Source of the DNA: a virus
Virus record (IMG/VR): IMGVR_UViG_3300032322_001160
Coordinates: 1-57,647 of that record
Strand: one strand, 5' to 3'
DNA: 57,647 nucleotides
Shown: positions 12,562 to 57,155 of the stretch, one piece after another
Layout: each line of letters opens with the position of its first letter
How positions within the stretch are numbered: the stretch's first letter is position 1
Position numbers and translations under genes: made by a program
Notes under the pieces: generated by a model
Databases searched by the model: none
What the model was told of the DNA's origin: nothing
What the model saw: the letters and a program-made list of their open reading frames with translations, nothing else

Positions 12562-13229
12562 TACTCTTTGTACAGGTTATCAAACGTCACATCAGGGTCC
12601 ATGTAACTATCGTCCTGCTCGGCACAGTGAATCCACTGGCTCGGTTTGAAATCAGGTGCACCGTTTCCGGTCTCCCAATAAGCAGGACTTGTCACACGGA
12701 CACGGTTATTGGGCAAAGCCACAATGTTCCCTGTCCACTTGCCCGCATCGGTCAGCATCAACACATGACTTTGCTTGTGTTGCGCCGGACAATCGGCAAT
12801 CTCGCTCTCCGCATAATCCACCGTAAACAAGTAGCGCCCCGTGTAAAACTCACCTGCTATCTTGCACAACCACGGACTCGGGCCTGTGCGGGCAAACTTG
12901 ACTACGGTGTGATGATGCGAAGGACAGTCCCATGGCTGGGCAAGATGCGTCGGCATACGTTCAGGCCACTCATCCAACCGAATGTCCCCAACTAACGCCG
13001 TGATCGGCATCCTCGCCCACATGGCACCGCCATGCACGTTTTCTGATCCTTCTGCATCGCTCTCACAACCGGTAAAAACCAGTTGGAAGCTCAAACAGCG
13101 GTCAGGCATGGTGTTTACCGCAATCGCCATCGCATGCAAGTATTCACCATGGTACTTCTGATGCATGTGAGTAAATTCACGTCTCACCCAGCACTTGAAG
13201 TACGGGATATTACTGATTAGGTAAGCCAT
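12561..13229 (-). CDS. Conserved structural-region protein
   Basis: 222 residues with many aromatic residues, His and Cys. Notable segments are MHQKYHGEYLHAMAIAVNTMPDRCLSF shortened here to its core YHGEYLHAMAIAV, a THLAQPWDCPSHHHTV cluster and CKIAGEFYTGRYLFTVDYAE. The family appears in aquatic phage connector regions, as I recall, but I know no function. The Cys/His cluster could bind a metal. Confidence 0.6.
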   Translation of the reverse strand: MAYLISNIPYFKCWVRREFTHMHQKYHGEYLHAMAIAVNTMPDRCLSFQLVFTGCESDAEGSENVHGGAMWARMPITALVGDIRLDEWPERMPTHLAQPWDCPSHHHTVVKFARTGPSPWLCKIAGEFYTGRYLFTVDYAESEIADCPAQHKQSHVLMLTDAGKWTGNIVALPNNRVRVTSPAYWETGNGAPDFKPSQWIHCAEQDDSYMDPDVTFDNLYKE

Positions 13230-13522
13230 TAGCGGCCTTTGCCGCCGCTCGCCATCATCTTTTTCTTCTTAACTGCACCACCTGCGGCATAGCCTTTTTT
13301 GACCATACCACCAGCAGCGTAGCCCTTCTTCATCATGCCGCCACCCATCATCTTGACAGGCGCTTCACCCATTGCCATGCGCTTGTGCTGGTTAACGTCG
13401 CCACCTTTTGCCATCATGATCGGGCCAGATGTCTGGCTCGTCTTCGACAGCATCTTGTTACGAGGACCGCTCTCTACTGCACCGCCGCCTTTGGTAGCGG
13501 CACCCATTCCACGTCCAGCCAT
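13229..13522 (-). CDS. Low-complexity Gly/Met/Lys-rich basic protein
   Basis: 97 residues, starting at the ATG at 13522 (8 nt after AAGGA); a GTG at 13528 overlaps the upstream stop and is an alternative. Very basic, with MMAKGGDV and a tandem repeat KKGYAAGGMV, KKGYAAGGAV near the C-terminus. These repeats carry the A-x-G-G-x-V element also found in the large virion proteins. Charge suggests nucleic-acid or capsid-interior binding; this is inference. Confidence 0.6.
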   Translation of the reverse strand: MAGRGMGAATKGGGAVESGPRNKMLSKTSQTSGPIMMAKGGDVNQHKRMAMGEAPVKMMGGGMMKKGYAAGGMVKKGYAAGGAVKKKKMMASGGKGR

Positions 13523-13524
13523 GA

Positions 13525-13770
13525 TCACTTTCCTTTCTTCATAGCGCGGCCTTTTACGTCCGCAGTTTTACGCTTAACAGCACGACCCATGGTGTCCGAG
13601 GACTTCTTTACCATGCCCCCTTTTTTCATGGTGTTGCCCTTCAGTACTGCTGCCACTTTTTGTGCAGCCAACGCGGGTACTGAACTCCCTTTTGATCCCG
13701 ACTCTTTGGGATTATTAATGCTTTCTCTAAGCATAGAGGCAATACGTTTGATCACTGACTCACTTACCAT
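13525..13770 (-). CDS. Small lysine-rich protein
   Basis: 81 residues. The N-terminal helix is VSESVIKRIASMLRESINN and the C-terminal half is strongly basic (MKKGGMVKKSSDTMGRAVKRK). An AGGAGA ribosome site precedes the ATG. It carries another KKGGMVKK element like its downstream neighbour, so the two may form one functional pair. No family recognised. Confidence 0.58.
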   Translation of the reverse strand: MVSESVIKRIASMLRESINNPKESGSKGSSVPALAAQKVAAVLKGNTMKKGGMVKKSSDTMGRAVKRKTADVKGRAMKKGK

Positions 13771-14837: not shown

Positions 14838-15434
14838 TTACGCAGTGGTACTTACCATGATGTAGTAGTTTGTTCCATTTGAACCAACGCACTTAATGGT
14901 GTGCGTTTGAGTTGGAGAACCTACAACAGCAGCCAAGACACCGCCTACTGCCGGTGCAGGCAAATTAAACAGATTTGAGAGCTTTGTTGTATTAGTGTTT
15001 GTCACACGAATAAACGACGCTGAAGCAGGAACAGTTGCAGTAGCATTTAAATCTGAATCAACTTGCAGCGCAGCAACGGTGCCACCAGTTGAAACACCTG
15101 CGGCAGCCCCCAGTGTTACGCGTAGGGCATTACCTGCTCCAGAGATCGTGCCACCAGAATTCACCGATAACGAAATGTGCGCGCCATTAACGGTGCCACC
15201 AGTTGCCGCATCCGCGCCAGTCACACGCGTAAACGCTCGAAGCGTCTCGCCTGAACCGGTCGAAGTGATGTCCAGACGGCTGTAACTTAGGCGGGTGTCA
15301 CCGGTCGTTGCCGAGCTCGTAGCATACGCGCTCGAAATGTTACCGGCGGTGGTGACTGCAATAGGAGAGGTTAAAGTGCCCGAAATAAAGCCGTTGTCAG
15401 AGGCTACCGGGCCGGAAAATCGTGTCTGAGCCAT
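14838..15434 (-). CDS. Beta-rich virion surface protein
   Basis: 198 residues, very Thr/Ser/Ala/Gly-rich, with short strands such as SYSRLDITSTG and ALRVTLGAAAG and a final strand YYIMVSTTA. The start (AQTRFSGPVASDNGF) is found on capsid fibre or decoration-like proteins. The position two genes downstream of the capsid gene supports a head surface role. The first 38 bp overlap the 3' end of the homing endonuclease gene, which suggests that the endonuclease gene landed immediately upstream of it. Confidence 0.6.
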   Translation of the reverse strand: MAQTRFSGPVASDNGFISGTLTSPIAVTTAGNISSAYATSSATTGDTRLSYSRLDITSTGSGETLRAFTRVTGADAATGGTVNGAHISLSVNSGGTISGAGNALRVTLGAAAGVSTGGTVAALQVDSDLNATATVPASASFIRVTNTNTTKLSNLFNLPAPAVGGVLAAVVGSPTQTHTIKCVGSNGTNYYIMVSTTA

Positions 15435-16023
15435 TGTAAAAGTCCTTTAAATGTTGATACTTCAAGGCAAGCTTTCTTACAGAACTAATGTCTGCCTTTA
15501 GGTGTCTTGCACGTTCAGCGTAAGACATGTCTGGATTATTTAGAATAAACGTGAGTTTCGCAACAAACTTTGGGTCTTGCTGAAAACGTGCCATTTGAGC
15601 TCTTGACAATGTAGCACGGTATTCCGGACTTTTGTAATCAAAAGTACTAGCTCTCCGACCCAACCGTATCTTTTCTCGTATCGCTTCTGTATGCGTTTTC
15701 CCCCGCATGGGAGCTTTTGCAAAATCAGCAATGTTATATACTGATTCTTCGTCAAACCATGCGTCTTTTTTTAAAAACGCTTCCTCTAGCTTGTCCAATT
15801 CATCCAAGTTTTTACACTCAATTTCTATAGACCCTACGAAGCATTCCGCCCCATGTTTGTTATACGCCCTTTGGAGGTGTGTGTTTGGGTGCTTATCCCC
15901 TCGTAGCAGTCGAAAATGTTCTTTTATTCTTTTTTTAACACGCTGGGACTGCCCAACATAACACTGACCTGTCGCGGTGTTAACTATTTTGTAGATACCG
16001 CATACATCTTGTTTATATGGCAT
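15397..16023 (-). CDS. GIY-YIG homing endonuclease
   Basis: 208 residues from the ATG at 16023, preceded by AAAAGGGG. GIYKIVN (residues 9-15) and CYVGQS (21-26) are the paired GIY and YIG strands, followed by the conserved Arg (QRVKKRIKEH) and a Glu in the SIEIE region. The segment MRGKTHTEAIREKI at about 135 is a NUMOD3-like DNA-binding motif, and SYAERARHLKADISSVRKLA is a helix-turn-helix-like end. Such free-standing enzymes cut an intronless allele and spread by repair. It sits between the capsid terminator and the next head gene. Whether it has inserted into an older gene cannot be seen. No intron is seen in flanking genes. Confidence 0.88.
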   Translation of the reverse strand: MPYKQDVCGIYKIVNTATGQCYVGQSQRVKKRIKEHFRLLRGDKHPNTHLQRAYNKHGAECFVGSIEIECKNLDELDKLEEAFLKKDAWFDEESVYNIADFAKAPMRGKTHTEAIREKIRLGRRASTFDYKSPEYRATLSRAQMARFQQDPKFVAKLTFILNNPDMSYAERARHLKADISSVRKLALKYQHLKDFYNGSDTIFRPGSL

Positions 16024-16063
16024 AAACAACCCCTTTTTACGTAGTTTTTGCCATTTTAAGGCT

Positions 16064-19806: not shown

Positions 19807-20067
19807 TCAATAAATCTTAACCGGGTTGTTCCCGTCTTTTTTCTTCACAACCATCGCAGGACCCTGCACACCCTTCATCGCACCGCCCTTAGCCATCTTT
19901 TTCGACTTGCCCGCAGTAGATAGCGCAATCGCCACCGCCTGCTTGACCGCCGCCTTCTTGCCCTTAGGCTTACTTGTACCTATCGAGCCGGTTTTCTTGA
20001 ACTTGCCGACCATCTCACTAATGTTCCCCGAGATTGTCTTCTGACTAGAACCTTTTTTAAGAGGCAT
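19807..20067 (-). CDS. Small basic protein, DUF6496-like
   Basis: 86 residues from the ATG at 20067, which follows AAGGAGCGAGAA. Begins [19 protein letters not shown] and has [20 protein letters not shown], which I recall as the DUF6496 block of aquatic phages; the name is from memory. MAKGGAMKG near the C-terminus resembles the A-x-G-G-x-V element of the virion proteins. The 5' end overlaps the portal stop by 11 bp. Confidence 0.68.
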
Positions 20068-22423
20068 TTCTCGCTCCTTGCTGTTGGTTAACCTGATTGA
20101 GACGCTCTCGCGCCACGTCCGCTCGCAACATCGCAATGTTTTCTTGCGACTGTACCCGCGCCATGTTAGCGCGCTGTACTTCCGCTGCCTTTTGCTGCTC
20201 TACCTGCAACTTCGCTGATTCAATCTGAATACGCTGGTTGTCCGCCTGCGCACGTTGCTGAATCTCGGCCTCTTTCAACTGCACCACAGGGTCCGGACCC
20301 TCACCTGCCAACTGCGACTGAATGCCACGCAACTCCATCATGCCCTTCGCCACTTCCAACGCAATCATGCCCTCCTTCTGGATCGGGGACACCATCTTGT
20401 CAGGGTCCGCACCATACTCCGAGAACAACTGCGCCTCGACAATTTCCTCCGCCTTCTTGCGAACGTGGTCAAGAATGTGCTTTTGCAAGGTCATCGCCGC
20501 CTGCGGGTTCGCCTGCAACATCGGCGACATGCCCATAATCAAATGCGACAAGATGTGCGCGTCATGTTGCTGTCCAGAGAAGGCCTTCAACTCCATCTGG
20601 TCCAGCACATCCGCATTTTCTTGCGCTGGGTCCTTCGGCATCTGCGTATTCTGCGGTCTCAAGATGCCATCAATGTCTCGGACGTTCATCGCCGCATACA
20701 CACGGTAGTACGCCTCGTACATGTTGTGCATCATCGGCGCTGTCTGTGCCAACTGCAACTGCGTTTGCGCCAAAGTGATCCTCTGGGCAACGGAGAAGAT
20801 GTTAGGATCAGCAACAGGAAGCACTGCCACCAGTTGATTAAAGTCCTGCTTCTTGATTTTTCTCGACGCACCCGGCACCTCGTACGGATATTCGTCCGGC
20901 AGATACTTTCCAAAGCCCTTCGCCAACAATTGGAACTCGATCTTCTGCGCATAATGCAGGCGCTTGTGGATCGCCGACATTACCATCGAGCCTTTTTCCA
21001 ACAACGCGATGGTCGTGCCCACCGCCGCCATCTGATTGCCCTCACCAACCTGCATATCGGCAATCGATGCCAAGCGTTTGCCCGCATCCACCACAAAACC
21101 AAGCAACGAGAACAGCGTCTGGCTCGGCTCTTTGTACGGCAACGGCAATAATGACGACGTTAGCTCCGCACCACCCGCGTCAATGTCTCGCCACTCGCCC
21201 GGTTGGATCGGATTATCGCTATCTGCGATACGCGCACCCTTCGCTTTGAAGCCCGCAGGCAGATTCGAGAGCGTTCCAGCGTCCAAAAGCTGACGCAACG
21301 CCATCGTTGCCGTCTTCGACAAGCCACCAATCAGGTGCACAAAGCCCAAACCGTACGCGCCCAAGCCCTCCACCAGCACATAATGCACAAAAGCAGGAAT
21401 TCGGAGCTTTAATTCGTCCTTTTCTTCCCAGTTTCGACGCACACCGACCACGCGACCGCTCACTTCCTCAATCGTAATCAAGAAAGGCAGCTTAATTCCC
21501 GTCGGTTCCCCGTCTTCACCCACATCTTCAAAGCCCGGCACGTCATAATCGACGTGCATCTCAAGCAAAAACATCTCCTCCGCGTCGTCAGACGGCGTTA
21601 AACCCGTCTGTTTGTTGACTGCCTCGGAAATATCGCTCGCCGTTGGGTCATACGCCTCCGGCTGCAAGTCCAAATCAAGGTACTCACCCGCCAAAACACG
21701 CTTTTTGAACTCGTTTGCGGACATCGCCACACGATGCGTGATCCGTGAGCATTGGGCCATGACGCTTGAACCGTAGTACGGGATGTACAAATCGTCCGCC
21801 AAGACCAATTTGGACACCATCCGACCCAAGTAACGGTCAAAATAAACCTTCTTGAACACCGATCCACCATAACCAAGGTAGAACAGCGCCTGATCAAACT
21901 CCGGTGTGTACTCCTCCATCACCGTTGTGATCTGATAATTCATAAAATCTTGAACGCGAGCCGCTTGTTGGGCCTTGTCCAACGTCTCTTTGCCCACGAT
22001 CTGCGTTCTAACCGGGCCACTCGACGGCATCAACTCCTTCATCGCCTGTGCTTGGAACTGCACAATGGCTTCCGTCAACATCGGATGCACTGCCCCAGCC
22101 GCACCACGGAAAGGCTTGGTCCGCTCTTCAAGCTTCAAGCCCAACAGATCAAGGCCCTTGGAGTACATCGTCTCCCAATCCGACCGCGATGACTTGTCCG
22201 CCTCGTAAAAAGCCAACAACGTCTGCGACATCTCGGACAAATCGTCGGCGCTAATTACCTCTGCAAGGTTGTCGTAGAAGTCAACTTCCGCTGCTTCCTC
22301 CTCACCCATTTCAATCGTCGCCCCACCGTCCTCTTCCAAGACGATTTCAATCTCAGGCATGCCCGCCGCTTCAATCTCCACGGACAAGGGCTTTTCGTTT
22401 TCCCCGAGCTTATCTATTGGCAT
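20057..22423 (-). CDS. Portal protein
   Basis: 788 residues. An acidic N-terminus is followed by [60 protein letters not shown] and the central [20 protein letters not shown] block, then [20 protein letters not shown] and a long helical Gln/Ala-rich C-terminus ([20 protein letters not shown]), the likely barrel. Size and order suit the portals of short-tailed phages. The portal is the 12-mer DNA gate that binds terminase. It lies between the giant protein and the chaperonin-like gene. The ATG is preceded by AAGGA. Confidence 0.85.
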
Positions 22424-22432
22424 GACTCTTCC

Positions 22433-25400
22433 TTAAATGTATTTACGCTTACCGGGGAGCTTTTTACCGACTCTACCGCCCTTGGCAAACTCGTCTACCG
22501 AACCTTTGATCGCGGACTCTGGCAGAACATACTCCGCCCAGTCATCCGGTCCGTTTTCTTCACGAATTAAATAGCCCGGCTCATACGGCGTTCTTTTGGC
22601 TTTACCTGTTTCTGGATCACGAACAGCCTTCAAGGTCTTAGGGTCACGCACAACCATATCACCATATAGACGCTTGGACTTGATTGTATATGGCGCTTTA
22701 TTCTTCTTTGCAGAATCTTCAGTAAAGACCCGCTGCCCCGGTTTGTACTTGAACTCCATCTCGTCCATCTGCTGCCGCATCTTTGCAGCACGATCGCGGA
22801 CGCTGTCGCCTAACGAAGTATGCACGTCCTGTAGCGTGGTCAACTCTTTACCAGCAACCTGCGACTCTTTCGCGCCCATCTTCGTCAAGGCCTTTGCCGC
22901 CTTTCGAACGATGCCACCGCCTGCAAAGCCCTGAGTGCCTTCTTTGTAGTTCTTGTACTGGCTATACAAATCACCCCAGTTGACTGTTGGACGATCTGCT
23001 TCGTCCAAGTTGGTCCCAGCACGATCATACCGATACGTTTCTGACGTGATCTTTCTAGGGCCTAGTGTGTCAAACAACTCAAACACTGCGCGTTGTTCTT
23101 CCGCACTCGGCGCACTGTTAAACTTTGACTTGACCTGAGTGACGTCCAAACCGTCTTCGGTAAATTCGGTCTGCACAGTTACCTGAGGAACACCCTTCTC
23201 ATTGCGCAGCGAGAAAATGCGCGCGCGTCCAGAAATAAAGCCCTCTTTACCGCCATGACCATAAGAGTCCTTGTACTTATAATCCCCGACAGAGTGTCTC
23301 ATCGCAGCACCCTCTAGCTCCACCGCATCAGGTGTCATGATCCGCACCCACTGCCTATTTTTGTCTATCTCGTAAACAGGCGTGGTGCCTTTAAAGTAAA
23401 TTTCTTTTGGAATCTTTTTGCCTTCCTTCGCCGTTTCTATCACCGTCTGCCAGTCACGCTTTAAACGCATGTTCTGCGCACCACGGATCACAGCATCAGA
23501 GAAGGTCATGCGCTCCAAATCCTTGAGTGATCCTGCTGCAACAATTGAAGCTATATCCTCTGCAACATTAGTCGGTTTTAAAAAGTCCATTGCAGGGGTT
23601 TGGGACAGATCGTAGATCGGCTGCTCCTTCGTCGCCGCATACAATACTGACTGCGCTCCGGGGTCTGTTTTACCCACACCACGAATAAAGTCTGTTTGCA
23701 ACTCGGGGGGAACCTCTTCCATTGCCTTTAGCAACTCCCCCAACCTCTTTCTTGCAGGATTAAAAGACGACTCCGCCAGTTCTTTCGAAGAATACGGATA
23801 AAGACTGCCTATATTGATATGCTCTGGCAGCACCCCCGCGTTCTCTAATGCTTGACGCTGTTCCGCCTCTACACGATTCGATGTTGTAAACCCGCCCTGC
23901 CGCCCCTCTGGCTTGTTATACACAATGCCTTTTAGCTTCGTTGCCTCATCGTAGACTCGTTCAAGGTCTTCTATCGCGGTAGGCCGTCCCGCACGTACGG
24001 CGTCTAAAACATAATCCCTGAAGAGATTTTTATCCTTGCCGTATACCCCTAAACGACCTTCAGTCAACGCTTCTCGAAAGGGATCGTTTGGCGTTCCAAA
24101 GTCTGTCGTAAAATATTTGCGACCCTTGGTTCGGATGAAGTCTGCGACAGTCTTGGCGTCCTTACCCGCTAGCCCTTCCGCCTTAGACAAACCCTGAACT
24201 ACCTCCTCTAGGTATTGATCTAGTTTAGAATCAAACCCCGCAGGCATAAAGTTCCCACCAGTTGGTTTGACCACGTACATCGGGCCTACACCTAGTTTGG
24301 CATCTAGTCGCTCTAATTTTTGCGCGGCTACCGGGCCGAGCTCTTCCAAGGCTTTCTTCGCGCCCGTCTTCACGCCCTTAGCCGTCTTACTGACCGTACC
24401 CGCTGGAATAGGCAACGGCAAGTACGAGCCCACCTCTTCAAAGCCCGCACCTTCTTTCGTTGCCTTCGTCATGCGCTTAGGCATGTAGTCGCGCAAGACC
24501 TCTTCCGTCGTGGCAAACTTCCTCGTCTTATCACTCTCACGGAAGATCGATTCGATGTCCCCCACTGATCCGGGGATCGCGGCCACTGAGCCGCGTACTG
24601 CCGACTCCAGATTTGACACACCTTCACCCATCACGTTACGCAACAGTCGCGCTGAATCAGACAAGACCGAACCCGTTCCCTTCTTGGACCTTAAGCCCGC
24701 CAAGGTATCCTTCGTAATCCCGCCTTCGCCAATCGCGATCTCGCCGTAAACAGGAGAACCCTCTGCGCGACGAACTAATCCACCTTTGCCATACTGCTGT
24801 ACGGGGACAGTGGCGGCGTCACTATCCCCCGATAACTTTTTTAGTAAAGCCCTCGATCGACTGTCCGCCACCTCACCCTCCGGCGGTGAACCCTCCGCTC
24901 GCGGTATCGCACCAATATACGCCTCACGGTCCGCATTGGCCTGATCAATCTTGGCGTACTCATTACCGATCAACTGATCAAAATATTCAGAGTACTGATC
25001 TAGCCCCGCCTGCTGTGCCCTCGACTTCGCCAAGTCCAACGTCGTAATGTTCTTGTTGTACGCTGCAACCAACGGATCAAACGTCTTGTTAATCGCCGCA
25101 TCCGTCGTCGTCTTGTTCACCGTAATCGCAGGACGCGTGTACTTCGGATACGCACGACCGGCGTTAAACGAACCAATCGCCGCTGCCGCCGCTGTCTTCA
25201 AAGCAGTCGCCTGCGTAACCTCCGCCTTCTGCGGATTCAATACGTCGTTCAAGAAGTTCATCGCAACATCACTCTTGGCACCATACAACGTACTCAACTG
25301 GTTGTACGTGTTCTGTGCCGCCGTCATGTCCTTCGTCTGACGCGCAATCTCCGGATCAAACAACGCCGCATTCATCTTCGAGAAGTCAACCGTGCTTATG

Positions 25401-27139
25401 TCCACCGGTGCAAACGCATCAATCTTCTGAGCCACTAACTGCTTACCCAAAATGTAGTCACGCATCGGATCAGGCTGCGCCGCGTCAATCGCCGACTGCC
25501 GCTGACCCAGCGCTTGCGTATACTTGTCCGTCTCAGTCTGCAACAACTGATCCAACTGCGACGCGTATTCAGTGAAGCCCGTGTTGGACGCCGCATCACG
25601 AGCCTTGGTCAACGCGCCGATGTTCGTCTCAAACGCCTTGATCGACGGTGCATACGCCGCAATCGTCTGCTGCTCATTGCGGAAGTCCGCTACCACCGCA
25701 GGCGCTACCTTGTACGCACGACCCGCGTTAATCGCATTGAACGCCGCCGTTGCCGCAGCCCTGTTGGCTGTTGCCTGAGTGCCCACGGTCAACGCATCGA
25801 CATCCGCCTTCTGCGGCACGACTATCGTATTGAAATAGTCTTTGACAAAATCCACGTCCTTGCCATACGCCGCCGCCAACTGGTTGTACGTGTTCAACGC
25901 AGCGTTGTACTCGTTCGTCTGCCGCGTTACCGACGCGGTGTATGGGTCAACCGGTGGTCCCACTGGCACACCCAATGTTGCAATGTCCGTTGCACCCGTA
26001 AATTCCGGCAACTTCAACGCCGTAAACTGCGCCTGTTGCAAACGCTGACGATACTGCTCAGGCGTCTCAAACGCCGCCGCCGCGCCCGTGAAGTACTTAT
26101 TCACGTACGCCTGATCCGCCTTGGACCTCGCTAACTCGGACTCCTGCTGAGCCAAGATCGGCTTTAGCTGCTCGACCAACGGCATATTGCCCTCGGCCAA
26201 GGCCTTGTTGTATTCGTTACGTACCGCCGTTGCATCCGCCTGCTGACGCGTGACAATGCCCTTATACGCCTCACCTACCTGCGCCTTGTCACCCACGCCA
26301 GATAACTGTTCCGGGGTCAGTGTCACGTAGTCCGCGTACGTGTAACCACCCGGCGTTACATTGGGCAAAGGCTCCGGTGCTGTCGGCGTAATCGTGCCAC
26401 CGCCCGTCGTTGGTGTACCCGTGTCCGCATACGGACTCGTTTGCAACGGACCCTGATACGTTTCTAACCCGCCATAGGTGATGCTCGGCTCATACCGCAC
26501 TAACGTCGGCTGTGCCTTCTGTAACTGTTCCTTCGTCAACAGTGTCGGTCTTTGGAACGTCTGGGCAGTCGGTGTGTACGCAGACGAACCCGTGGTGTAG
26601 TCCGGCATCGCTGCCATCGTCGAAGGATTGATCTGCTCAAACAACGACCGCGCTGTCGTCGTCGGTGCCGACACAGGCTGAGACAAAGTAGGCTGCGCGC
26701 CAATGCCCGCAATCGCCGGAGTCGGCGTGATGATGTTCGGGCCCGTGGGCGGTGTATACGTAGGCTGGAATGTCGGGATGTTGATCTGGCTCGGCGTACT
26801 TGCCGCCGTTGTCGGCTGCGACAAATTCGCACCGAACAAATTCTCCACCGGCGCACCCGCATTGATCTGCTTGTTGATGTCCAACAATTCCGGGAACGGC
26901 GTCTTCTGTACCTCACCACCGTCGGCAAAGGTCTGCAACATCTGTGCTGCCGTGCGACGCGGCGCAGGCGGTGTCATTGGTGTTGGCATAGGGCGCTGTG
27001 GGATGCGACTTAAAATCGCGGCAGAATCCTCTACCTCCCCGCCCTCTGCAAAATACGACACAGTAGGCTCCACTTCATTTTCCATACTGTCGTCATATGC
27101 TGACGACAAGTCGTCAATGGTCAGTTCACGCTCATCCAT
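22433..27139 (-). CDS. Giant virion-associated protein with PcfJ-like domain
   Basis: 1568 residues, between terminase and portal. The first 340 residues are Pro/Thr-rich and disordered. Two tandem helical repeats of about 195 residues follow (starting near 395 and 590), sharing NTYNQL, QKA(D/E)V and FNAGRAY-like cores. Around residues 1200-1360 lies a PcfJ-like signature: a His-x-Val-Gly-x-Tyr box with H1282 (RHSVGDY), then ARIFSLRN, PQVTVQTEF and TQVKSKFN. Five copies of an aromatic-A/G-x-GG-x-V motif occur at 30-36, 71-77, 783-789, 1405-1411 and 1551-1557. No enzyme motif is certain. A packaged internal protein is the best guess. Confidence 0.62.
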   Translation of the reverse strand: MDERELTIDDLSSAYDDSMENEVEPTVSYFAEGGEVEDSAAILSRIPQRPMPTPMTPPAPRRTAAQMLQTFADGGEVQKTPFPELLDINKQINAGAPVENLFGANLSQPTTAASTPSQINIPTFQPTYTPPTGPNIITPTPAIAGIGAQPTLSQPVSAPTTTARSLFEQINPSTMAAMPDYTTGSSAYTPTAQTFQRPTLLTKEQLQKAQPTLVRYEPSITYGGLETYQGPLQTSPYADTGTPTTGGGTITPTAPEPLPNVTPGGYTYADYVTLTPEQLSGVGDKAQVGEAYKGIVTRQQADATAVRNEYNKALAEGNMPLVEQLKPILAQQESELARSKADQAYVNKYFTGAAAAFETPEQYRQRLQQAQFTALKLPEFTGATDIATLGVPVGPPVDPYTASVTRQTNEYNAALNTYNQLAAAYGKDVDFVKDYFNTIVVPQKADVDALTVGTQATANRAAATAAFNAINAGRAYKVAPAVVADFRNEQQTIAAYAPSIKAFETNIGALTKARDAASNTGFTEYASQLDQLLQTETDKYTQALGQRQSAIDAAQPDPMRDYILGKQLVAQKIDAFAPVDISTVDFSKMNAALFDPEIARQTKDMTAAQNTYNQLSTLYGAKSDVAMNFLNDVLNPQKAEVTQATALKTAAAAAIGSFNAGRAYPKYTRPAITVNKTTTDAAINKTFDPLVAAYNKNITTLDLAKSRAQQAGLDQYSEYFDQLIGNEYAKIDQANADREAYIGAIPRAEGSPPEGEVADSRSRALLKKLSGDSDAATVPVQQYGKGGLVRRAEGSPVYGEIAIGEGGITKDTLAGLRSKKGTGSVLSDSARLLRNVMGEGVSNLESAVRGSVAAIPGSVGDIESIFRESDKTRKFATTEEVLRDYMPKRMTKATKEGAGFEEVGSYLPLPIPAGTVSKTAKGVKTGAKKALEELGPVAAQKLERLDAKLGVGPMYVVKPTGGNFMPAGFDSKLDQYLEEVVQGLSKAEGLAGKDAKTVADFIRTKGRKYFTTDFGTPNDPFREALTEGRLGVYGKDKNLFRDYVLDAVRAGRPTAIEDLERVYDEATKLKGIVYNKPEGRQGGFTTSNRVEAEQRQALENAGVLPEHINIGSLYPYSSKELAESSFNPARKRLGELLKAMEEVPPELQTDFIRGVGKTDPGAQSVLYAATKEQPIYDLSQTPAMDFLKPTNVAEDIASIVAAGSLKDLERMTFSDAVIRGAQNMRLKRDWQTVIETAKEGKKIPKEIYFKGTTPVYEIDKNRQWVRIMTPDAVELEGAAMRHSVGDYKYKDSYGHGGKEGFISGRARIFSLRNEKGVPQVTVQTEFTEDGLDVTQVKSKFNSAPSAEEQRAVFELFDTLGPRKITSETYRYDRAGTNLDEADRPTVNWGDLYSQYKNYKEGTQGFAGGGIVRKAAKALTKMGAKESQVAGKELTTLQDVHTSLGDSVRDRAAKMRQQMDEMEFKYKPGQRVFTEDSAKKNKAPYTIKSKRLYGDMVVRDPKTLKAVRDPETGKAKRTPYEPGYLIREENGPDDWAEYVLPESAIKGSVDEFAKGGRVGKKLPGKRKYI

Positions 27140-27179: not shown

Positions 27180-28646
27180 CTAATAATACTCATACACAAG
27201 CGAATCACTCGACTCTTCCTCGACATCGTCCGTCTGCAAGGTCACAAAGTTCCCCTGACGGAACCGCATCATCGCCTGTGTTGTCGAATCGACCATGTCG
27301 TCGTTGTCGCCATTGGGGAACGCCGCACACTCCTCGATCAACTCCTCCGCCCACTCCGTCTCCGGTGCCCAGACCATCCGGCTCTCAAACAAAGGGGCCA
27401 CCGCATGCGCCCGGCTGATCTTGTCCTGCCCGGCTCGCCTGCCACCGGGGTTGTACATCGTCACAGGAATCCCCACTCGACGCAACTCCTGCTGCAAAGT
27501 AACGCCCGTGGCCTTGGCCTCGATCAAGACATTGTCCGGATTCCAATAGGTGTACTGCTCCTTGGCAATCCGCTTTAACTCCGGAAAATCCCACCGACCC
27601 TTAACGACATCCAACAAAATAATGTTTGGACCCGAGTCCGCGTCCGGGACAAAAACACCCCACGTCGTGATCACCGAGAAGTCAGCCGTCTCTTTCTTCG
27701 AGTACGCCGTATCGTAACTCTGGATCAAATACTCACACTTGGGCGGGGAGTTGTGCGTCCATCGCTGCCACCACTCCCTTTTCAAAATGGCACCCTCTTC
27801 CGCCGTGGGCTGCTGCTGCCACTGCGCTTGCCACTTCCGAAGGCCAATCGACATCTTGACCTTCTCTAACTCCTCTAGCTTCCAGTACTCCGGCCACAAA
27901 GGCGTGTTGCTCGGCAAAATAGCCGGGAACTCCAATACCTCCCACTGGTCCGATTTCAACTGGCCTTGCTGCTTTAATAAGCGGCCCGACAGATCATCCG
28001 TCCGCCATCTTGTGTTAATGATAATGATCGAGCCGTCCGGCTGCAAACGCTGACGAGGGCCAGACGTGTACCACTCCCACGTGCCCTCCATCGCGGTGTC
28101 CGACAAAGCATCCTGTTCGTCCAAGATGTCGTCCAGAATCACCACGTTACCGCCACGGCCCGTCATCGCACCGCCCTTACCGATGAAGAACGCTTCACCG
28201 CCAGCATTCGTGTCCCACCGGCCCGCTGCCTTGGAATCCGCCGATAACGAGAAATCCGGAAACAACTCCCGATAACGCTCCTCCGCCACAAGATTTCGAA
28301 TCATCCGGCCAAAACGCTGCGCTAACTCCGCCGTGTGCGAACCGACAATGAGTTTCGAATCAGGCTTCTTACCCATCAGGTACGCGGGGAACAGATAACT
28401 GCCCATCTGGCTTTTGCCATGGCGGGGAGGCATAGCGATCATTAACCGCTTACAACGGCCCGCTACCACGTCGTCCAACTTCTTCGCGATCCGACGGTGA
28501 TGCTCGCCGACGATCATCTCAGGCCACACGTAGCGGCAGAAGTCCAGAAAGCTTGAAGTGGCGCGTTCTTGGGTTTCAAGCTGCAAGAGTCGGAGTTCGA
28601 GCTTTACGCGTTCGGCTTCAACGTCTTGTTGATTTGATAAGGTCAT
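27180..28646 (-). CDS. terL: Terminase large subunit (TerL)
   Basis: 488 residues from the ATG at 28646; a TTG at 28664 is an alternative, and neither has a clear ribosome site. MPPRHGKS (about 72-79) is the Walker A, VVILDD (about 168-173) the Walker B, and IIINTRWRTDD the coupling motif. The C-terminal nuclease has IQSYDTAYSKKETADFS (first metal Asp) and VLIEAKATG (second acidic residue), ending with MVDSTTQAMMRFRQG. It drives DNA into the prohead and cuts it. The gene is separated from TerS by a roughly 3.7-kb island, which is unusual because the two are normally adjacent. Confidence 0.93.
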   Translation of the reverse strand: MTLSNQQDVEAERVKLELRLLQLETQERATSSFLDFCRYVWPEMIVGEHHRRIAKKLDDVVAGRCKRLMIAMPPRHGKSQMGSYLFPAYLMGKKPDSKLIVGSHTAELAQRFGRMIRNLVAEERYRELFPDFSLSADSKAAGRWDTNAGGEAFFIGKGGAMTGRGGNVVILDDILDEQDALSDTAMEGTWEWYTSGPRQRLQPDGSIIIINTRWRTDDLSGRLLKQQGQLKSDQWEVLEFPAILPSNTPLWPEYWKLEELEKVKMSIGLRKWQAQWQQQPTAEEGAILKREWWQRWTHNSPPKCEYLIQSYDTAYSKKETADFSVITTWGVFVPDADSGPNIILLDVVKGRWDFPELKRIAKEQYTYWNPDNVLIEAKATGVTLQQELRRVGIPVTMYNPGGRRAGQDKISRAHAVAPLFESRMVWAPETEWAEELIEECAAFPNGDNDDMVDSTTQAMMRFRQGNFVTLQTDDVEEESSDSLVYEYY

Positions 28647-28702
28647 AGGTTTTGAATTTTGCAAAAATTTTTCTAGGCAATTGATTTTGCAGGGAAAGGG
28701 GG

Positions 28703-28718
28703 TGTTTCACGTGGAACC
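28703..28718. promoter_or_regulatory. parS-like ParB binding site
   Basis: TGTTTCACGTGGAACC differs from the bacterial consensus TGTTTCACGTGAAACA at two positions; its right half (GTGGAACC) is a known natural variant. It is the only such match I see in the window and lies in non-coding DNA 57 bp upstream of the TerL ATG. No ParA or ParB gene is recognised here, so host ParB would be the binder. See findings. Confidence 0.6.
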
Positions 28719-28859
28719 ATAACTCAAAACTTTTGAATTGGTAACTATTTGTGTGAAATCGGGCCAAGGCGTTCGCCAGCCAGACCGGGGGGCCATTTTT
28801 GGTTAGTGGGTACTCACTTCGCCGAGATGCTAGATAAATGGTCGCCGGGACTCTGCCCC

Positions 28860-29120
28860 CGGTCCACGGCCAGCGGCCCACGGGACGCGGCCAGCGGCCA
28901 GCTGGGAGCGGTCCACGGCCAGCTGATAGCGCGACGGCCCCGGCCAGCTGGGCCAGCTGGTAGCGGTCCACGGCCCCCGGCTAACGGCCAGCTGGGAGCG
29001 ATCAACGGCCAGCTGGGCATGTACTTAAGTACACGGCCCCGGGTCACGTACACGGCCCGCTGGGAGCGGCCAGCGGCCCCGGCCAGCTGGGCACGGACCA
29101 CGGCCCCCGGCCAGCTGGGC
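28860..29120. repeat. GGCC-rich degenerate tandem repeat with CCAGCTGG octamers
   Basis: A degenerate unit of about 21 bp (core GGCCAGCTGGGAGCGGTCCAC) recurs. The palindromic octamer CCAGCTGG occurs at 28898, 28944, 28953, 28988, 29009, 29083 and 29111, with near copies such as CCAGCTGA at 28919. A 12-bp palindrome GTACTTAAGTAC interrupts it at 29021-29032. Both strands are open for over 370 bp, but only as repetitive Gly/Pro/Arg frames with no ribosome sites, so I call it non-coding. Confidence 0.8.
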
Positions 29121-29250
29121 ACGGCCAGCGCGATACGTTTCAGGGATAACGGACCAAGGCCCACGGGGCCCGGTTCAAATTGCATAGGCGAAACGGGTTT
29201 TTGTGCTGGCCCCGGTTGCCAGTAACAGCGCCCAGCTAATGTACAGGCGA

Positions 29251-51400: not shown

Positions 51401-51634
51401 ACCATAACCCACTTCGGTGGCTTTTTCGCCAACCGTAGGCTCTCCTGCACCAGAAAGTGATTCGACCGCCTCGGGCATCCCCGTAATAGGATTAAGCGCG
51501 CCTTCCGCAGCACCTGTACGAGGAGCGACAACCCCCGGAGGAGGTCTGCCTGACAGGATTTCAGAAGCACGACTGCCCCCGCCGGGAGCAGACAAAGCAT
51601 TTAATTGCTTCTGAACTTCATCTTCTGCTGCCAT
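48407..51634 (-). CDS. Internal virion (ejection) protein, large
   Basis: 1075 residues. The N-terminal 300 residues carry Gly/Ala/Pro-rich hydrophobic segments (GIAGFRAGLFAAPAAGPYAP, GAVTGTITGAIVGDFLS). A long helical part follows, with a Pro-rich C-terminus (PAPEPMVQAPEPVRTFAPRR). Size, hydrophobic-then-helical layout and the next genes of the same kind suggest an ejected protein that helps build the DNA-transfer channel. No lytic-transglycosylase motif is evident. Confidence 0.62.
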   Translation of the reverse strand: MAAEDEVQKQLNALSAPGGGSRASEILSGRPPPGVVAPRTGAAEGALNPITGMPEAVESLSGAGEPTVGEKATEVGYGLLEGVSRTSPAVTGGIAGFRAGLFAAPAAGPYAPLIPPLGAVTGTITGAIVGDFLSNELDIKFPGVARQDLVPYREGGKTFGDTIALAPIAFNIPYTQAERLSNAIRLVEPTAAKFGMEGAARTSRFFTDVLAGMGRTAQNYPKSFLAAETISGAGAGLGGGIAESEAPGRPGVRLASEIAGGVLAPSRLFIHIGSAKDLMGNIGASFSRDAREARAANKLYSILQDSGEDIDKVIRSLEANVPRGAQPSAGQKTGIRSLSILENTLARENAKYGGELAEQGRKTLLAYQLLAQNLDNVGTPQALRAAAQLRNEAFEAMLENRQGIALANAAQKIRGITKDTPEARQQIGAIVRDATYESLSDARKHERFLWDRVSKEFEKPVGKGGAVRGVRPLVYKTIEPENTVRNFLDEVIKLDPAVYKNTVPKLVKDVMKQMGVDDAAIFTYRRGRYHPDYAETGKIPDRNMPKLTEMEVPNLVNLRSNLLDLSRQASIKGENAEARFYGSLADGMLQDLSKIKSTKLDEARDFSRVLNDYYTRSFAGEMLGKKSSGALAYPPEVLVQRAFGANNDLAAMRMADIEDAVGMLGREYTDAVNKFGKRSQQALSLKPLADLSAERVVSIRDAQERILRLAAAETIDPNTGRVSVTRLSRFVEKRRPLLDKLQITSDLTDVVKAENALKATLNGNSFMQKSLRDQTAFAQVVKFESPTMAIADALNSKFPVRSFSRITQLAKAGGPDAVNGLKSSLYDYAFTKAGGDKGFSPQAFEKAFFDPIARGEPSIYNIMRSQGLMTLTEGKNLKRIIDPMLKVEQSLGDRQLMEGVLQGADAATELALRVVGSRIGTGVSGGGPGSLIAASAGSKYMRQIFDKSPMLMVRGIIEEATKDPQMMALLLRKGRTEGEQLQLSRQMHAYLTAAGLNYERFQEPAPEPMVQAPEPVRTFAPRRQPATAPTRGVPGLNIGGGGPAPLGPRPAAGGAGGSSSREALKRLFPFDTTIQ

Positions 51635-53634
51635 TACTCTGCCCCTTTAGTTACTCGCAGATCAGAACCATTCCACAGGAAAGGTGTTCCCGGAGGGCTC
51701 TTCTTCGTAAAGTCTTGGAGTGCTTTAATCGTATAAAGTTTAGGTGGAACACCCAGCTTCGGCAAGAAGTTCTGGATTGTTGTAACGATCTTAGTATGTT
51801 CTTTGCGCTGATCCACAGGCAGGTTGGCATTTGAGGCATTTGCCTGTGCATCCGTTAAGCGCTTAGTTAGATAAGCATCAATACCGATCAGCTTATTACG
51901 AAGCTTCGCCGGATCGTCAAAGAAACGAGGGTCAAGATCGAGTTCTTTTTCAATCGCCGAACGCTCTCCTTGTGCGTACACAGGGCTGTTCTGCAAGGTC
52001 TTAACCAATTCACGGTAGTCACCAAGATAACGTGCGCGCGCCTGAGTCACATCGGCACCCACATTACCAAAGCCCGGCACACTAGAGATCACGTCCTTTG
52101 CTGCAGGAATGGGACCCGTCAATACGGGCGTCAACTCCCATATGGTACGCTCTCTGGCAGGCTGCTTTGTCGGAGCCGTGGTCACCGGTGCGGCTTCACG
52201 GGCAGGCGCTGCTGCTCCGGGAGCCGTGGTCACTGGAGCTTCACTCACCGGTGCGGCTTCACTCACAGGCGCTGCTTCACCCTTTTTGCCCTTACCCTTA
52301 CCCGGTGTTGCAGGCAATGGGATGTTCTCGCGCAGCTTTATCGCATTGCTGACGAAGTCTGGGATTGGCGGACGACGTGTTTCAAGGTTCCCTGTGAAGG
52401 GGTTAGTAATGTAAGTAGGCTCAGAGATGATGGCGTACGAGCTTTTGAATCGACGATCATTCTCTGGCGTCAATTTACCCGCAGCATAATCAGGTGCAAA
52501 GCGCGTAATAAAGTTCCACGCCGCACCCTTTACGCCAGAGCCAAAGCCCTGTCCCCTTGCTGCCGCTTTGACGATGTCGCCCGACAGCTTGCGCTGCTCT
52601 GAGATCAACTTGAAGTTGTAGTCGCGGACCAGTGCGATATCTTTCTCGCCTGCCTGCAACGCCAGCAGTTTTGCCTCGCGCTGTCCTTTTGCCAGTTCGC
52701 CCGCACGTGCGCCAATCAATGCCGGTACGTTACGTATACCGGCTGCAATACGTGCAATCGGCGAGACGTTGCCACGGATGCGATTGCCCTCGGCGTCCAC
52801 GCCTGCTGCAACATTCAACGCGCCCTGCGCAATGTCAAACAACATCTGCGCTTGTATGGCTTCTTTGTCCGCGCCCAGTAAACGCTGATACGTTGGAAGA
52901 CGTGCCGCCATGGCGCTTTCAAGTGACGGCAGTCGTTGCTGCTGTGTCGCCAGCAGGTCCACCACGTCTTGTTGGGCTTTAGCAACCAACTCAGGAGGGT
53001 AGAAGGCTTGTTGCCCACTTAAATCGACAGGGGTCACGCCCTCCTCACCGGACCCTTCTTGAAAATGCTGAACAATTCCTCCGTCCTTCATGGCAATCGG
53101 AGCTTGTTGTTCAGCGGCTGCAGGCAACGATCCAATACCGCCCGGAGGGGGTGCCTCAGGCATTGGCATTGGAGGCGCGGTCTGTGGCCCTTGAGCCATG
53201 GCCGCTAAGTCGGCAACCCCGCCTGCTGGTGCTGCCATCGGATTCGCTTGTGCAGGCATTGCCATCTGCGGTGGCGGCTGCACCATCGCGCCTTGTTGCG
53301 CCAATACGGGCTGCAACAGCGCCAAGACCTCTGTCGGTGTTTCCGACGCAGCGCGATAGCCGACGAGGTCTGCGAGTTCTTCAACACGCGCGTCTACTGA
53401 ACGCATGTCGCCGCGAAGATTGTTCATGAGGATTTCAGGCGAATCAGGACGACGGTCCATCATCTTGCCCATCTCCATTTCATCCTCGTCGTCATCCTCT
53501 TCTTCCATGTCATCCATCATGGATACCTGATCCATGAAGCCCTGCATGATGCCGACGTTATTCACGTCCTCAGGGGGAACGGGAGGCCCTTTCTTCTTGA
53601 ACATAGGCCTGTCAATTACTTTCGATTTCATCAT
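51634..53634 (-). CDS. Internal virion protein with acidic N-terminus
   Basis: 666 residues. Acidic tract (DDMEEEDDDEDEMEMGKMMD), Pro/Ala/Met-rich part (MQ/PP repeats), the element MKDGGIV (182-188), then the helical body (QDVVDLLATQQQRLPSLESA) and repeats APVSEAAPVSEAPVTTAPGA. Starts one base before the large internal protein ends. Function as a virion protein is inferred from its block. Confidence 0.6.
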   Translation of the reverse strand: MMKSKVIDRPMFKKKGPPVPPEDVNNVGIMQGFMDQVSMMDDMEEEDDDEDEMEMGKMMDRRPDSPEILMNNLRGDMRSVDARVEELADLVGYRAASETPTEVLALLQPVLAQQGAMVQPPPQMAMPAQANPMAAPAGGVADLAAMAQGPQTAPPMPMPEAPPPGGIGSLPAAAEQQAPIAMKDGGIVQHFQEGSGEEGVTPVDLSGQQAFYPPELVAKAQQDVVDLLATQQQRLPSLESAMAARLPTYQRLLGADKEAIQAQMLFDIAQGALNVAAGVDAEGNRIRGNVSPIARIAAGIRNVPALIGARAGELAKGQREAKLLALQAGEKDIALVRDYNFKLISEQRKLSGDIVKAAARGQGFGSGVKGAAWNFITRFAPDYAAGKLTPENDRRFKSSYAIISEPTYITNPFTGNLETRRPPIPDFVSNAIKLRENIPLPATPGKGKGKKGEAAPVSEAAPVSEAPVTTAPGAAAPAREAAPVTTAPTKQPARERTIWELTPVLTGPIPAAKDVISSVPGFGNVGADVTQARARYLGDYRELVKTLQNSPVYAQGERSAIEKELDLDPRFFDDPAKLRNKLIGIDAYLTKRLTDAQANASNANLPVDQRKEHTKIVTTIQNFLPKLGVPPKLYTIKALQDFTKKSPPGTPFLWNGSDLRVTKGAE

Positions 53635-54875: not shown

Positions 54876-57065
54876 TTACGTCCTCTTTTCCAAGGCCTTC
54901 ATTAGCGCGTACATACGCTTTGCACCCTTGCGCCGTGAGCCGTTGCCCATGGCACGTACTGCTTTTGCGGTGAACACAAATTCGCCGTCCGAGAGCATGG
55001 CTGGAATCGAATCCGACGTACCCGTGCCGGGGCCGTTGATAGGGCCAGTCTTTCGAGGGAAGCTCGAAGTACCGCGTTTCAAACTGGCGATACCGCCTGT
55101 GGCATAACGATACGCTTGTCCGGTGGATGCGGAAACGGTTCTCACATCGGGCGTCAAATAGTACGGATTTTGTCTGTACAGTTCTGCGCCTGAGGTTGGC
55201 ATATCTGGCTTTGGCGGCGGTTCTGGTGTGTCAAACGCCCCACCTAAATAAGCCGCACCCAGAGCCGCACCGGCGAGAGGGCCGTAGGTTGCGACCATAC
55301 CGGGCATGCTGGCTTCATACGCCTTCAAGGCAAGGTCTTTACTACCTGTCCTAGCCAAAGTGTCGGCATAAGCCTTTTCTGCGTTCTTAGCTCCAGCGGA
55401 CTGTATGCCACTCGGAGACAGGTATTCGTCGTAGAGATCGCCAACCTTCGATGCAGCGGTCTTGCCTGCCTCGACAAACTTACCCTGACTAACCAAGTCC
55501 ATCACGCCTTGCGATGGAGCCGCTGCGGGGGACATGGCGTCAAGTTTCAGAGGACCCGCGTCACCCGGCATCTTTATGCCAAGCATAGTGCCGGTATCCG
55601 TTAGGGCCGGGGGGGCGGGTGGGACATTAGTACCCGACAGGCTTGGCTGTACGCGAGCACCTGTCCCCGTATAACTGGAGAGGTTAGGAACGTCAGGGGA
55701 AATCCGCTCTAATCCCGTTTGCGTGGGAACGGCAGCGGTTCTGCCACTAATCACATCCAGTTTTAGGTCATCCAAATTCTGTACTGCGGACTCCACCGGA
55801 GCGCCAGTGGTTGTCTTACTCACTGTTCTGCCCAAAGCGTCTGTTTGATAAGTGGTGATCGTGCCGTCAGGATTAGGAACGCTCTGTGCGCTCTTAGCCG
55901 CAGCAGGGGACATCCGACCTGCTGCTGCCGTCTCATCTATAGCGCCTGCTCCGGCGGGAGATACAGGGGCCGCTGCTGCTGCTTCATCTACAGCGCCTGC
56001 GGCCTTCGTTGCTGCTGCCGCTTCATCCGCTGCGCCTGCGGCCTTTGTTACGTCTACCGCAGGCTTGCCAGCAACCGTGTCAGTAAAGCTCTTCCACGAC
56101 TCAGAAACACTCGTAGGACCTGTGTAAGAACCCGACTTAAACGCTGAAGCACCGCCCATTACACCCGAGAAGGCACCTGCGGTCAAACCACCCATGGCAC
56201 CCGATTTCAAGGCCTCGCTAATGCTGCCCCCGGCCATCAAAGTCGAACCAGCAGAACCCACAAAGCCGCTAATCGCGGCTACACCCACACTCGAAGTAAC
56301 ACCCAGCATACTCGCCGCTGCTGGGCCTAAGAAGAAGCCCAACGCCACCGAAGTAACAATTCGTCCCACGGTGCTGCTTGCAAACTTTTTGACGGCTTTG
56401 CCGATGCCCCGGACAGCGCCTTTGATGGCTTTACCTACGCGTGTGAACGCTCCACCGATGGCTTTTCCCAGTTTTTTCAAAAAGAATTCAGGCAGTCCTG
56501 TGACGGGGTTGATCGTTCCTGATCCGCCTGCGCGCATCAGCATACGCGCCTCGCGTGGCGTGATGTGCGCCAGCATCTTATCGCCACCTCGGCCCAAGCT
56601 TGCAATTCCGGCAGAGATGGGGTTTTTGACCATTCCACCGCGAGCAAAACCCTGAATAACCGGCTGAGAAATCTGATCCAACGCCATGTCCAACGCCATC
56701 AAATACATGGGGTCAAACTCAGCGGGCAAGAGGTCTTCTGGAACACCCTCTTTAATCAGTTCCTGCCGGTTTTCTGTGTACTTATTTGGCTCTTGAAGAA
56801 GGACATCCACCATCTCCTTCATTAAGTCAATCAGTTCCTGAGGCAATTGCATGCCACGCAACATCATGCGTAGCTCTGCCACCGCCTGCGGATCAGCTTG
56901 CTCCGCCGCGTTGAACATCTCAGTGTTGAACTGTTGAGGAGAGATAGAGTTGCGAAGCTCGTTGAGCGTCGCATCGTCTTCAGGGGTGAGATAACTCTTA
57001 GCGGCATTGCCTTGACCCGACATTTCGGGAACTAAGGACATGACGCCCTGCATCGCTTCAGCCAT
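54876..57065 (-). CDS. Internal virion protein with membrane-like core
   Basis: 729 residues from the ATG at 57065, after AAGGATTATC. N-terminal helical part, then FARGGMV (140-146), amphipathic basic helices (KKLGKAIGGAFTRVGKAIKG), hydrophobic segments (TSVALGFFLGPAAASMLG), low-complexity Ala/Pro/Thr, YATGGIA (654-660) and the C-terminal DGEFVFTAKAVRAMGNGSRR, then GAKRMYALMKALEKR. A membrane-active core among virion proteins supports a role in ejection. The 54-kb longer frame starts without a ribosome site. Confidence 0.65.
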   Translation of the reverse strand: MAEAMQGVMSLVPEMSGQGNAAKSYLTPEDDATLNELRNSISPQQFNTEMFNAAEQADPQAVAELRMMLRGMQLPQELIDLMKEMVDVLLQEPNKYTENRQELIKEGVPEDLLPAEFDPMYLMALDMALDQISQPVIQGFARGGMVKNPISAGIASLGRGGDKMLAHITPREARMLMRAGGSGTINPVTGLPEFFLKKLGKAIGGAFTRVGKAIKGAVRGIGKAVKKFASSTVGRIVTSVALGFFLGPAAASMLGVTSSVGVAAISGFVGSAGSTLMAGGSISEALKSGAMGGLTAGAFSGVMGGASAFKSGSYTGPTSVSESWKSFTDTVAGKPAVDVTKAAGAADEAAAATKAAGAVDEAAAAAPVSPAGAGAIDETAAAGRMSPAAAKSAQSVPNPDGTITTYQTDALGRTVSKTTTGAPVESAVQNLDDLKLDVISGRTAAVPTQTGLERISPDVPNLSSYTGTGARVQPSLSGTNVPPAPPALTDTGTMLGIKMPGDAGPLKLDAMSPAAAPSQGVMDLVSQGKFVEAGKTAASKVGDLYDEYLSPSGIQSAGAKNAEKAYADTLARTGSKDLALKAYEASMPGMVATYGPLAGAALGAAYLGGAFDTPEPPPKPDMPTSGAELYRQNPYYLTPDVRTVSASTGQAYRYATGGIASLKRGTSSFPRKTGPINGPGTGTSDSIPAMLSDGEFVFTAKAVRAMGNGSRRKGAKRMYALMKALEKRT

Positions 57066-57155
57066 GATAATCCTTTCCAAAGTGGCAATAGACCCTCGTG
57101 CAGGGTCGCGCGCCGGGAAAGGACGCGGAATTGTCAGCAATTATGTGGTAATTCA

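Follow-up and report, generated by a model that had tools for sequence, protein, structure and literature searches.

A short F/Y/M-A-x-G-G-x-V motif recurs in otherwise dissimilar viral proteins and may mark proteins stored in the phage particle and shot into the host

The window and its motif-bearing proteins

The window, by which we mean the whole stretch of DNA analysed (57,647 bases), is a complete IMG/VR virus record. Its virion half encodes a terminase large subunit, a portal, a major head protein and a GroES homologue. The gene order of this half resembles that of Phage DSL-LC04 from lake water, and the portals of the two phages are 73.5% identical. A seven-letter motif (an aromatic residue or Met, A, any residue, G, G, any residue, V) or a close variant of it occurs in six proteins of the window, which are given here with the landmark genes.

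27180..28664, minus strand: terminase large subunit, a landmark
20057..22423, minus strand: portal protein (phrog_1216), landmark of the slot upstream of it
22433..27139, minus strand: polyvalent-type giant of 1568 aa, between the terminase large subunit and the portal; five motif copies
27032..27052, minus strand: FAEGGEV, residues 30-36 of the 1568-aa protein
26909..26929, minus strand: FADGGEV, residues 71-77 of the 1568-aa protein
24773..24793, minus strand: YGKGGLV, residues 783-789 of the 1568-aa protein, in a stretch of pLDDT<50
22907..22927, minus strand: FAGGGIV, residues 1405-1411 of the 1568-aa protein, at the edge of a folded domain, pLDDT<50
22469..22489, minus strand: FAKGGRV, residues 1551-1557 of the 1568-aa protein, 11 residues from the C-terminus, pLDDT<50
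54876..57140, minus strand: 754-aa protein with PHROG tape-measure matches and a tape-measure-type C-terminal element at residues 677-734
56628..56648, minus strand: FARGGMV, residues 165-171 of the 754-aa protein, pLDDT<50
55086..55106, minus strand: YATGGIA, residues 679-685 of the 754-aa protein, pLDDT<50
51634..53634, minus strand: 666-aa protein; motif in 34 of 46 homologues
53071..53091, minus strand: MKDGGIV, residues 182-188 of the 666-aa protein
13229..13528, minus strand: small basic protein of 99 aa, rich in Met, Gly and Lys; three motif copies
13394..13414, minus strand: MAKGGDV, residue 39 of the 99-aa protein
13301..13321, minus strand: YAAGGMV, residue 70 of the 99-aa protein
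13271..13291, minus strand: YAAGGAV, residue 80 of the 99-aa protein
13609..13629, minus strand: MKKGGMV, residue 48 of the 81-aa protein at 13525-13770
19876..19896, minus strand: degenerate MAKGGAM, residue 81 of the 109-aa protein at 19807-20136 (phrog_2423)

The original prediction had pointed to this motif in several proteins of the window and described their bodies as otherwise unrelated. All the motifs that it named are present in our translations, with MKKGGMV in the 81-aa protein as an extra copy; its coordinates, 22433-27139, span one carrier only. The carriers are indeed dissimilar, as BLASTP between the six gave best cross matches of 18-105 aa with E values of 0.09-0.9, the best of which (18 aa) is the motif itself. 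A carrier previously given as 729 residues is 754 aa long from a TTG start at 54876-57140, the shorter length presumably reflecting a later start.

Using a curated list of 72 genes and shuffling within each protein, we found the pattern [FYM][AGK].GG.[VI] 11 times in the window, against a mean of 0.43 and a maximum of 3 in 500 shuffles, and the reversed motif 0 times in the same list. The frequency is far above that expected from composition, and the motif did not occur in the non-structural genes either, so that the prediction held on both of the points proposed for its refutation. All 11 motifs lie in the virion half and none in non-structural genes, which account for 6125 of 18613 residues (p = 0.012 for their absence there by length alone). 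A looser pattern, [FYMW]..GG.[VIAMLG], gave a weaker signal (20 vs 7.3) and included non-virion and Gly-rich proteins. The [AGK] form was used for the window, 157-sequence and coordinate counts and [AGKS] in later counts; a wider form was used for the locus-level count of the window, which gives 8 and not 11 because the longest-ORF greedy gene caller loses real genes such as 13229-13528.

The 1568-aa giant has some traits of a polyvalent-type protein: it is large, lies in a virion module and has a variable architecture. Its homologue in Phage DSL-LC04 is annotated as PcfJ-like, and its own PcfJ-like region (residues 1241-1350) falls below the Pfam cut-off (19.9 vs 25 bits). The model of this region (residues 1228-1407, window 22919-23458) has good confidence, and its fold is similar to that of GNAT acetyltransferases, with a best Z of 8.7 to HAT1 over ~140 residues, a borderline value for the method; Foldseek returned no match at E<0.001 for the C-terminal part of the protein. 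In related phages, the slot upstream of the portal holds proteins of up to 2076 aa with mosaic local homology.

The 754-aa protein matches seven PHROG families, six of them tape measure (best E 8e-9), and its C-terminus matches the tape-measure chains 8rk3 and 8zdo of the PDB. This similarity is confined to the C-terminal ~60 residues. The C-terminal 83 aa match 692 INPHARED records, and the best 60 of these 692 are mostly annotated as tape measure. Judged by these matches, the C-terminal element qualifies as a tape-measure C-terminal element. The annotated relative DSL-LC04 has Pam1-type adaptors.

Other parts of the window also drew our attention. A 222-aa protein (12561-13229) has at least 600 homologues in IMG/VR, which adjoin motif-bearing small basic proteins, and the loci of these homologues yielded 53 motifs in 34 of 79 new loci. 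We considered this protein as a partner of the motif and dropped it: its relatives in cyanophages and pelagiphages (24-29% identity) are annotated as PurM. Immediately upstream of the terminase gene, two overlapping ORFs with repeated W-P-L / G-R-G-P units (28618-29185) look like a repeat array rather than protein genes. Among the capsid genes, the ORF at 15397-16029 is, as we read its start (CGIYKIVN...GQCYVGQ), presumably a GIY-YIG-type endonuclease.

Distribution of the motif in viruses and bacteria

A homology search with the portal and the 754-aa protein led us to 150 viral loci which, together with six annotated phage stretches and the window, make up 157 sequences and 1968 distinct called proteins. 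Here the motif was counted 206 times vs 8-16 times in five shuffles; in reversed order it stays at or below expectation (27 vs 33-52 shuffled). For a scan not tied to one lineage, IMG/VR was searched with a degenerate DNA pattern for FA[DE]GG[DE]V and with the same codons reversed as a control, yielding at least 120 loci of each kind, which do not form a formal random sample. Among the matches listed, the pattern lay in frame in a called gene in 108 of 120 loci vs 46 of 120 for the control. Taking the control as a measure of the chance in-frame rate, which is an assumption, we estimate that ~7 of the 108 in-frame matches are due to chance (12 off-frame x 46/74).

The motif is clustered within viral genomes. 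Once the seed was masked, 61 of the motif loci still contained strict motifs (117 in all), as against 5 control loci with 7, and proteins other than the seed carrier still contained 38 motifs in 26 loci vs 4 in 4 (both among the matches listed). Part of this clustering follows the window's own lineage, since 20 of the 120 motif loci vs 0 of the 120 control loci listed encode a homologue of the window portal. Applied to genomes of bacteria and archaea, the same pattern was in frame in 26 of 119 loci, with 9 further motifs, or 32 per million residues vs 25 for the reversed control; bacterial genomes are thus at background. The enrichment in viral loci together with this background level makes the motif a property of viral proteins, widespread and virus-specific well beyond the window. 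A signal at the DNA level was ruled out, as the third bases of the GG codons match ordinary usage; third codon positions at both glycines being free, selection acts on the protein.

We then considered unselected carriers passing a length filter of 150-1000 aa (66 of 91). Their commonest PHROGs are tape measure (six of the top seven, 5-10 members each), followed by a DNA ejection protein PHROG (4) and endolysin (3), with terminase-family matches in 4 at most and a head protease in 1. A re-check confirmed one terminase and the head protease. We put all these terminase and protease cases down to chance matches, as the ~7 in-frame matches expected by chance would account for them. The 66 carriers match 8 Pfam families only, including ART-PolyVal (2) and PcfJ (2), vs 46 Pfam families and 208 PHROGs of all functions in 66 length-matched controls.

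Among the immediate neighbours of carriers (79 of 94 taken), we found portal (12), DNA ejection (6) and head-tail adaptor (4) genes; terminase and tail-lysozyme genes also adjoin carriers. In the slot upstream of window-type portals, 55 of 74 proteins bear the motif, with 101 copies vs 1.44 after shuffling. These giants are mosaic and have local segments in common, with 63 of them in one cluster, and are therefore not all independent. Up to eight downstream genes per locus gave 19 copies in 19 of 310 proteins vs 1.26 expected from shuffling. Families and gene positions together suggest that the carriers are mostly internal, tail-lumen or injected-type proteins, accompanied by small basic proteins which we regard as putative virion proteins.

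A short conserved motif in predicted disorder

Residue preferences are tight on both sides of the glycines. F (7.5x), M (4.5x) and Y (3.8x) are enriched at position 0, where W, L, I, R and H are depleted; position 1 is mostly A, with K next; E is the commonest residue at position 5; and V is enriched 8.7x at position 6 where I stays at 1.0x. Within the family of the 754-aa protein (32 members), the first copy (position 165) has F in 23, M in 7 and Y in 2 members, A in 31 of 32 and GG in all 32, amid variable flanks, and the second copy (YATGGIA) retains A in 29 and GG in all 32. At the matched sites of the 666-aa family, M is constant and V is kept while positions 1 and 5 vary. A scan of residue pairs around GG ranked M at -3 with V at +3 sixth, but it was dominated by contexts resembling conserved protein families and was not used as evidence.

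The surrounding sequences have little in common. With a link set at 7 of 20 flanking identities, the 427 distinct contexts form 227 clusters; a shuffled control of this simple identity rule gave 41 chance links. Copies sit at N-terminal, internal and C-terminal positions. AlphaFold2 models cover five copies, two of them in the 754-aa protein and three in residues 760-1568 of the giant; every one lies in a stretch of pLDDT<50, for which a simple count assuming independent positions gives a chance of ~0.008.

Variants and companions of the motif were also noticed. In the giants of loci L111, L134 and L138, a variant starting with K (KAKGGSV, KQEGGPV, KADGGSI) stands behind a normal copy, spaced from it by 9 residues. 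In the small proteins of L521, L560, L567, L568 and others, the motif is followed by a C-terminal cassette, R-x-D-G-x-A-x-R-G-x-T-x-G; 6 of 7 such cassettes have a motif-like site at most 45 residues upstream.

A short linear motif is a conserved 7-mer amid disordered, otherwise variable sequence. The motif described here answers to this definition as far as structure prediction can tell, and it recurs in proteins that appear dissimilar by sequence comparison. We regard it as a well-supported short linear motif of viral proteins of the internal type. The original prediction had spoken of a short linear signal for virion incorporation, proteolytic processing or binding to a common partner: the signal itself stands, with a conserved 7-mer in predicted disorder, 227 clusters of contexts, virus specificity and location in virion modules, and the three functions are candidates.

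Possible functions and comparison with known systems

We tentatively favour the view, to which we give a probability of about 0.45, that the motif is a short linear docking tag of internal or ejected virion proteins, recognized by a putative partner. In such a scheme, [F/Y/M]-[A, less often K]-x-G-G-x-V would be placed in unstructured N-terminal, C-terminal or inter-domain stretches of tape-measure C-termini, DNA-ejection proteins, polyvalent cargo and small basic proteins. The aromatic or Met residue and the Val would each enter a small pocket of the common partner, A and GG would give the backbone its geometry, and unrelated proteins could in this way be taken up, kept or passed on as a group while the virion is assembled or ejects its contents. 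The tight preferences on either side of AxGG, the predicted disorder, the repetition and the unrelated cargo suggest a common partner, and among the three functions binding to such a partner seems to suit the residue preferences best. The examples of P1 DarB and the T4 internal proteins make virion incorporation a plausible candidate too.

As to the partner that we infer, docking to an SU10-type portal machine alone was ruled out, since SU10 and phiEco32 contain 0 strict motifs. Tape measures belong to tails and polyvalent cargo to heads, so that no single virion protein is the obvious candidate. Mimicry of the mobile loop of GroES (GGIVL), a homologue of which is encoded by the window phage, was not retained, E being the commonest residue at position 5. 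A broader version, in our opinion unlikely, would make the motif a cross-family address tag, one seven-residue code read by one conserved partner of phage or host origin and common to the ejected proteins of unrelated phages; new cargo could then be recruited by gaining seven residues. In its boldest form, a maturation protease would act at the same site, as a phage counterpart of the GG-X processing of large eukaryotic DNA viruses. The proteases of adenovirus and African swine fever virus have GG-X maturation sites, a short GG motif repeated in internal virion proteins, although the adenovirus consensus places the hydrophobic residue one position nearer to GG than the phage motif does.

Processing is the alternative that fares best, although we consider it doubtful. 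A cut at or next to AxGG in internal and tape-measure proteins would trim tags or separate the domains of large multidomain proteins, either while the particle is built or once the proteins have been ejected. In T5 and lambda, the tape-measure protein is cleaved in the course of assembly, that of T5 (pb2) after R1127, according to the portion of the T5 study consulted (Linares 2023, PMC10038345). This is the sole sequence-mapped tape-measure cut that we found. The cut region (residues 1119-1145) reads SFVPR|AEGGMMYPGVSYQMGEHGTEVV / SFVPR|AEGGMMYPGVSY, which places the bond directly before an AxGG core (R1127|AEGG) in a tape-measure C-terminal context; the same portion of the article does not mention the AEGG core. 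The match is partial, R and M standing in for F/Y/M and V, and R is among the residues depleted at position 0. In lambda gpH, likewise processed, FATGGFT at 733 would yield a fragment of ~80 kDa out of 92.3, and the 20 N-terminal residues of P22 gp7 are removed by the host protease OpdA just before KGGKGG according to the record note. The motif copies in 16 scanned carriers (7 without any family) all lie outside the Pfam envelopes reported, as would befit cleavage between domains. Yet the cut of JBD30 at 1066, as given in the accessible part of its description (PMC11445458), falls between motif-like sites at 1019 and 1081. Some copies are spaced by 10 residues, and some lie no more than 10-20 residues from the C-terminus, and such copies would make poor processing sites; no protease was recognized among the window proteins searched; and a requirement for Val that far from the bond would be unusual for a protease.

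A purely structural role in long internal proteins, as a linker or hinge made of a small turn with hydrophobic flanks and no partner, seems to us a good deal harder to defend. It would agree with flanks in which M, P, K, G and E abound and C, W and H are scarce, with copies between domains and at termini and with the predicted disorder. A hinge, however, would not require F/Y/M over L/W or V over I, nor a 7-mer that stays constant while its flanks vary, and comparable long proteins of SU10, T7 and N4 do without it. More improbable is that the motif is a copied piece of an ancestral tape-measure C-terminal element, spread by mosaic recombination and functionless outside tape measures. The second copy of the 754-aa protein does belong to a genuine element of this kind, and the same arrangement occurs in lambda and JBD30. 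Tape-measure-type sequence follows the motif in just 31 of 398 contexts, though, the flanks are spread over many clusters, and F, M and Y interchange at homologous sites, which argues that the motif is maintained. Both of these readings explain less than docking does. Chance arising from Gly-rich composition, although loose forms of the motif do occur in Gly-rich tail proteins, has virtually no probability left after the shuffles, the reversed and codon-reversed controls and the bacterial genomes.

If the motif is indeed a tag of internal or ejected proteins, cargo could be predicted from sequence among the large unannotated proteins of aquatic phages. It would become testable how phages select the proteins that they pack and inject, and where and by what tape measures such as lambda gpH are processed.

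Searches of open-licence papers, judged by title and abstract, turned up no account of the motif. Among laboratory phages, lambda gpH has YATGGYV at 778 besides the copy at 733, and JBD30 gp46 has FASGGHI at 1019 and HATGGQI at 1081. The gpH tail weakly matched designed proteins, which we take to be kelch designs, but a kelch-like repeat was rejected as the motif has neither the kelch repeat nor its spacing. No strict motif was present in the stretches of T7, N4 and HK97 examined, and none in P1, including DarB and DdrB, or in the P22 ejection proteins gp7, gp16 and gp20; the single strict match in P22 is YKPGGSI in the small orf69. In pelagiphages and Roseobacter CRP-901, the motif is rare or absent. 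Its absence from SU10, phiEco32, T7, N4, P1 and the P22 ejection proteins indicates that the motif is not universal and that ejection machines can work without it.

A short signal on proteins packed into the head and injected has precedents in P1 DarB and in the capsid-targeting sequence of T4 IPIII. DarB, an injected protein, is packaged via its first 30 residues, according to the part of the work consulted (PMC9024508). Short packaging signals thus exist, but those of the T4 / P1 type are N-terminal and differ in sequence, whereas the motif described here lies at any position.

Polyvalent proteins offer a second parallel. Found in phages and conjugative elements, these large and variable proteins are believed to be packaged and then injected (Iyer et al. 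2017, PMC5512222, in the sections available), and the ART-PolyVal and PcfJ domains found among the unselected carriers recall them. The same sections mention no common motif and use the words 'glycine' and 'linker' 0 times. Conjugative elements also sit in bacterial genomes, yet these genomes are at background for the motif.

A third likeness is to tape-measure C-termini. In lambda gpH, JBD30 gp46 and the PHROG families, the same 7-mer often precedes a GPGTGTSDSIPAMLSDGEFV-type stretch, and this combination was found in the 754-aa protein. Unlike in these C-termini, most copies of the motif stand without a GPGTGTSDSIPAMLSDGEFV-type stretch, in proteins that match no tape-measure family, and they occur several per protein and several per genome.
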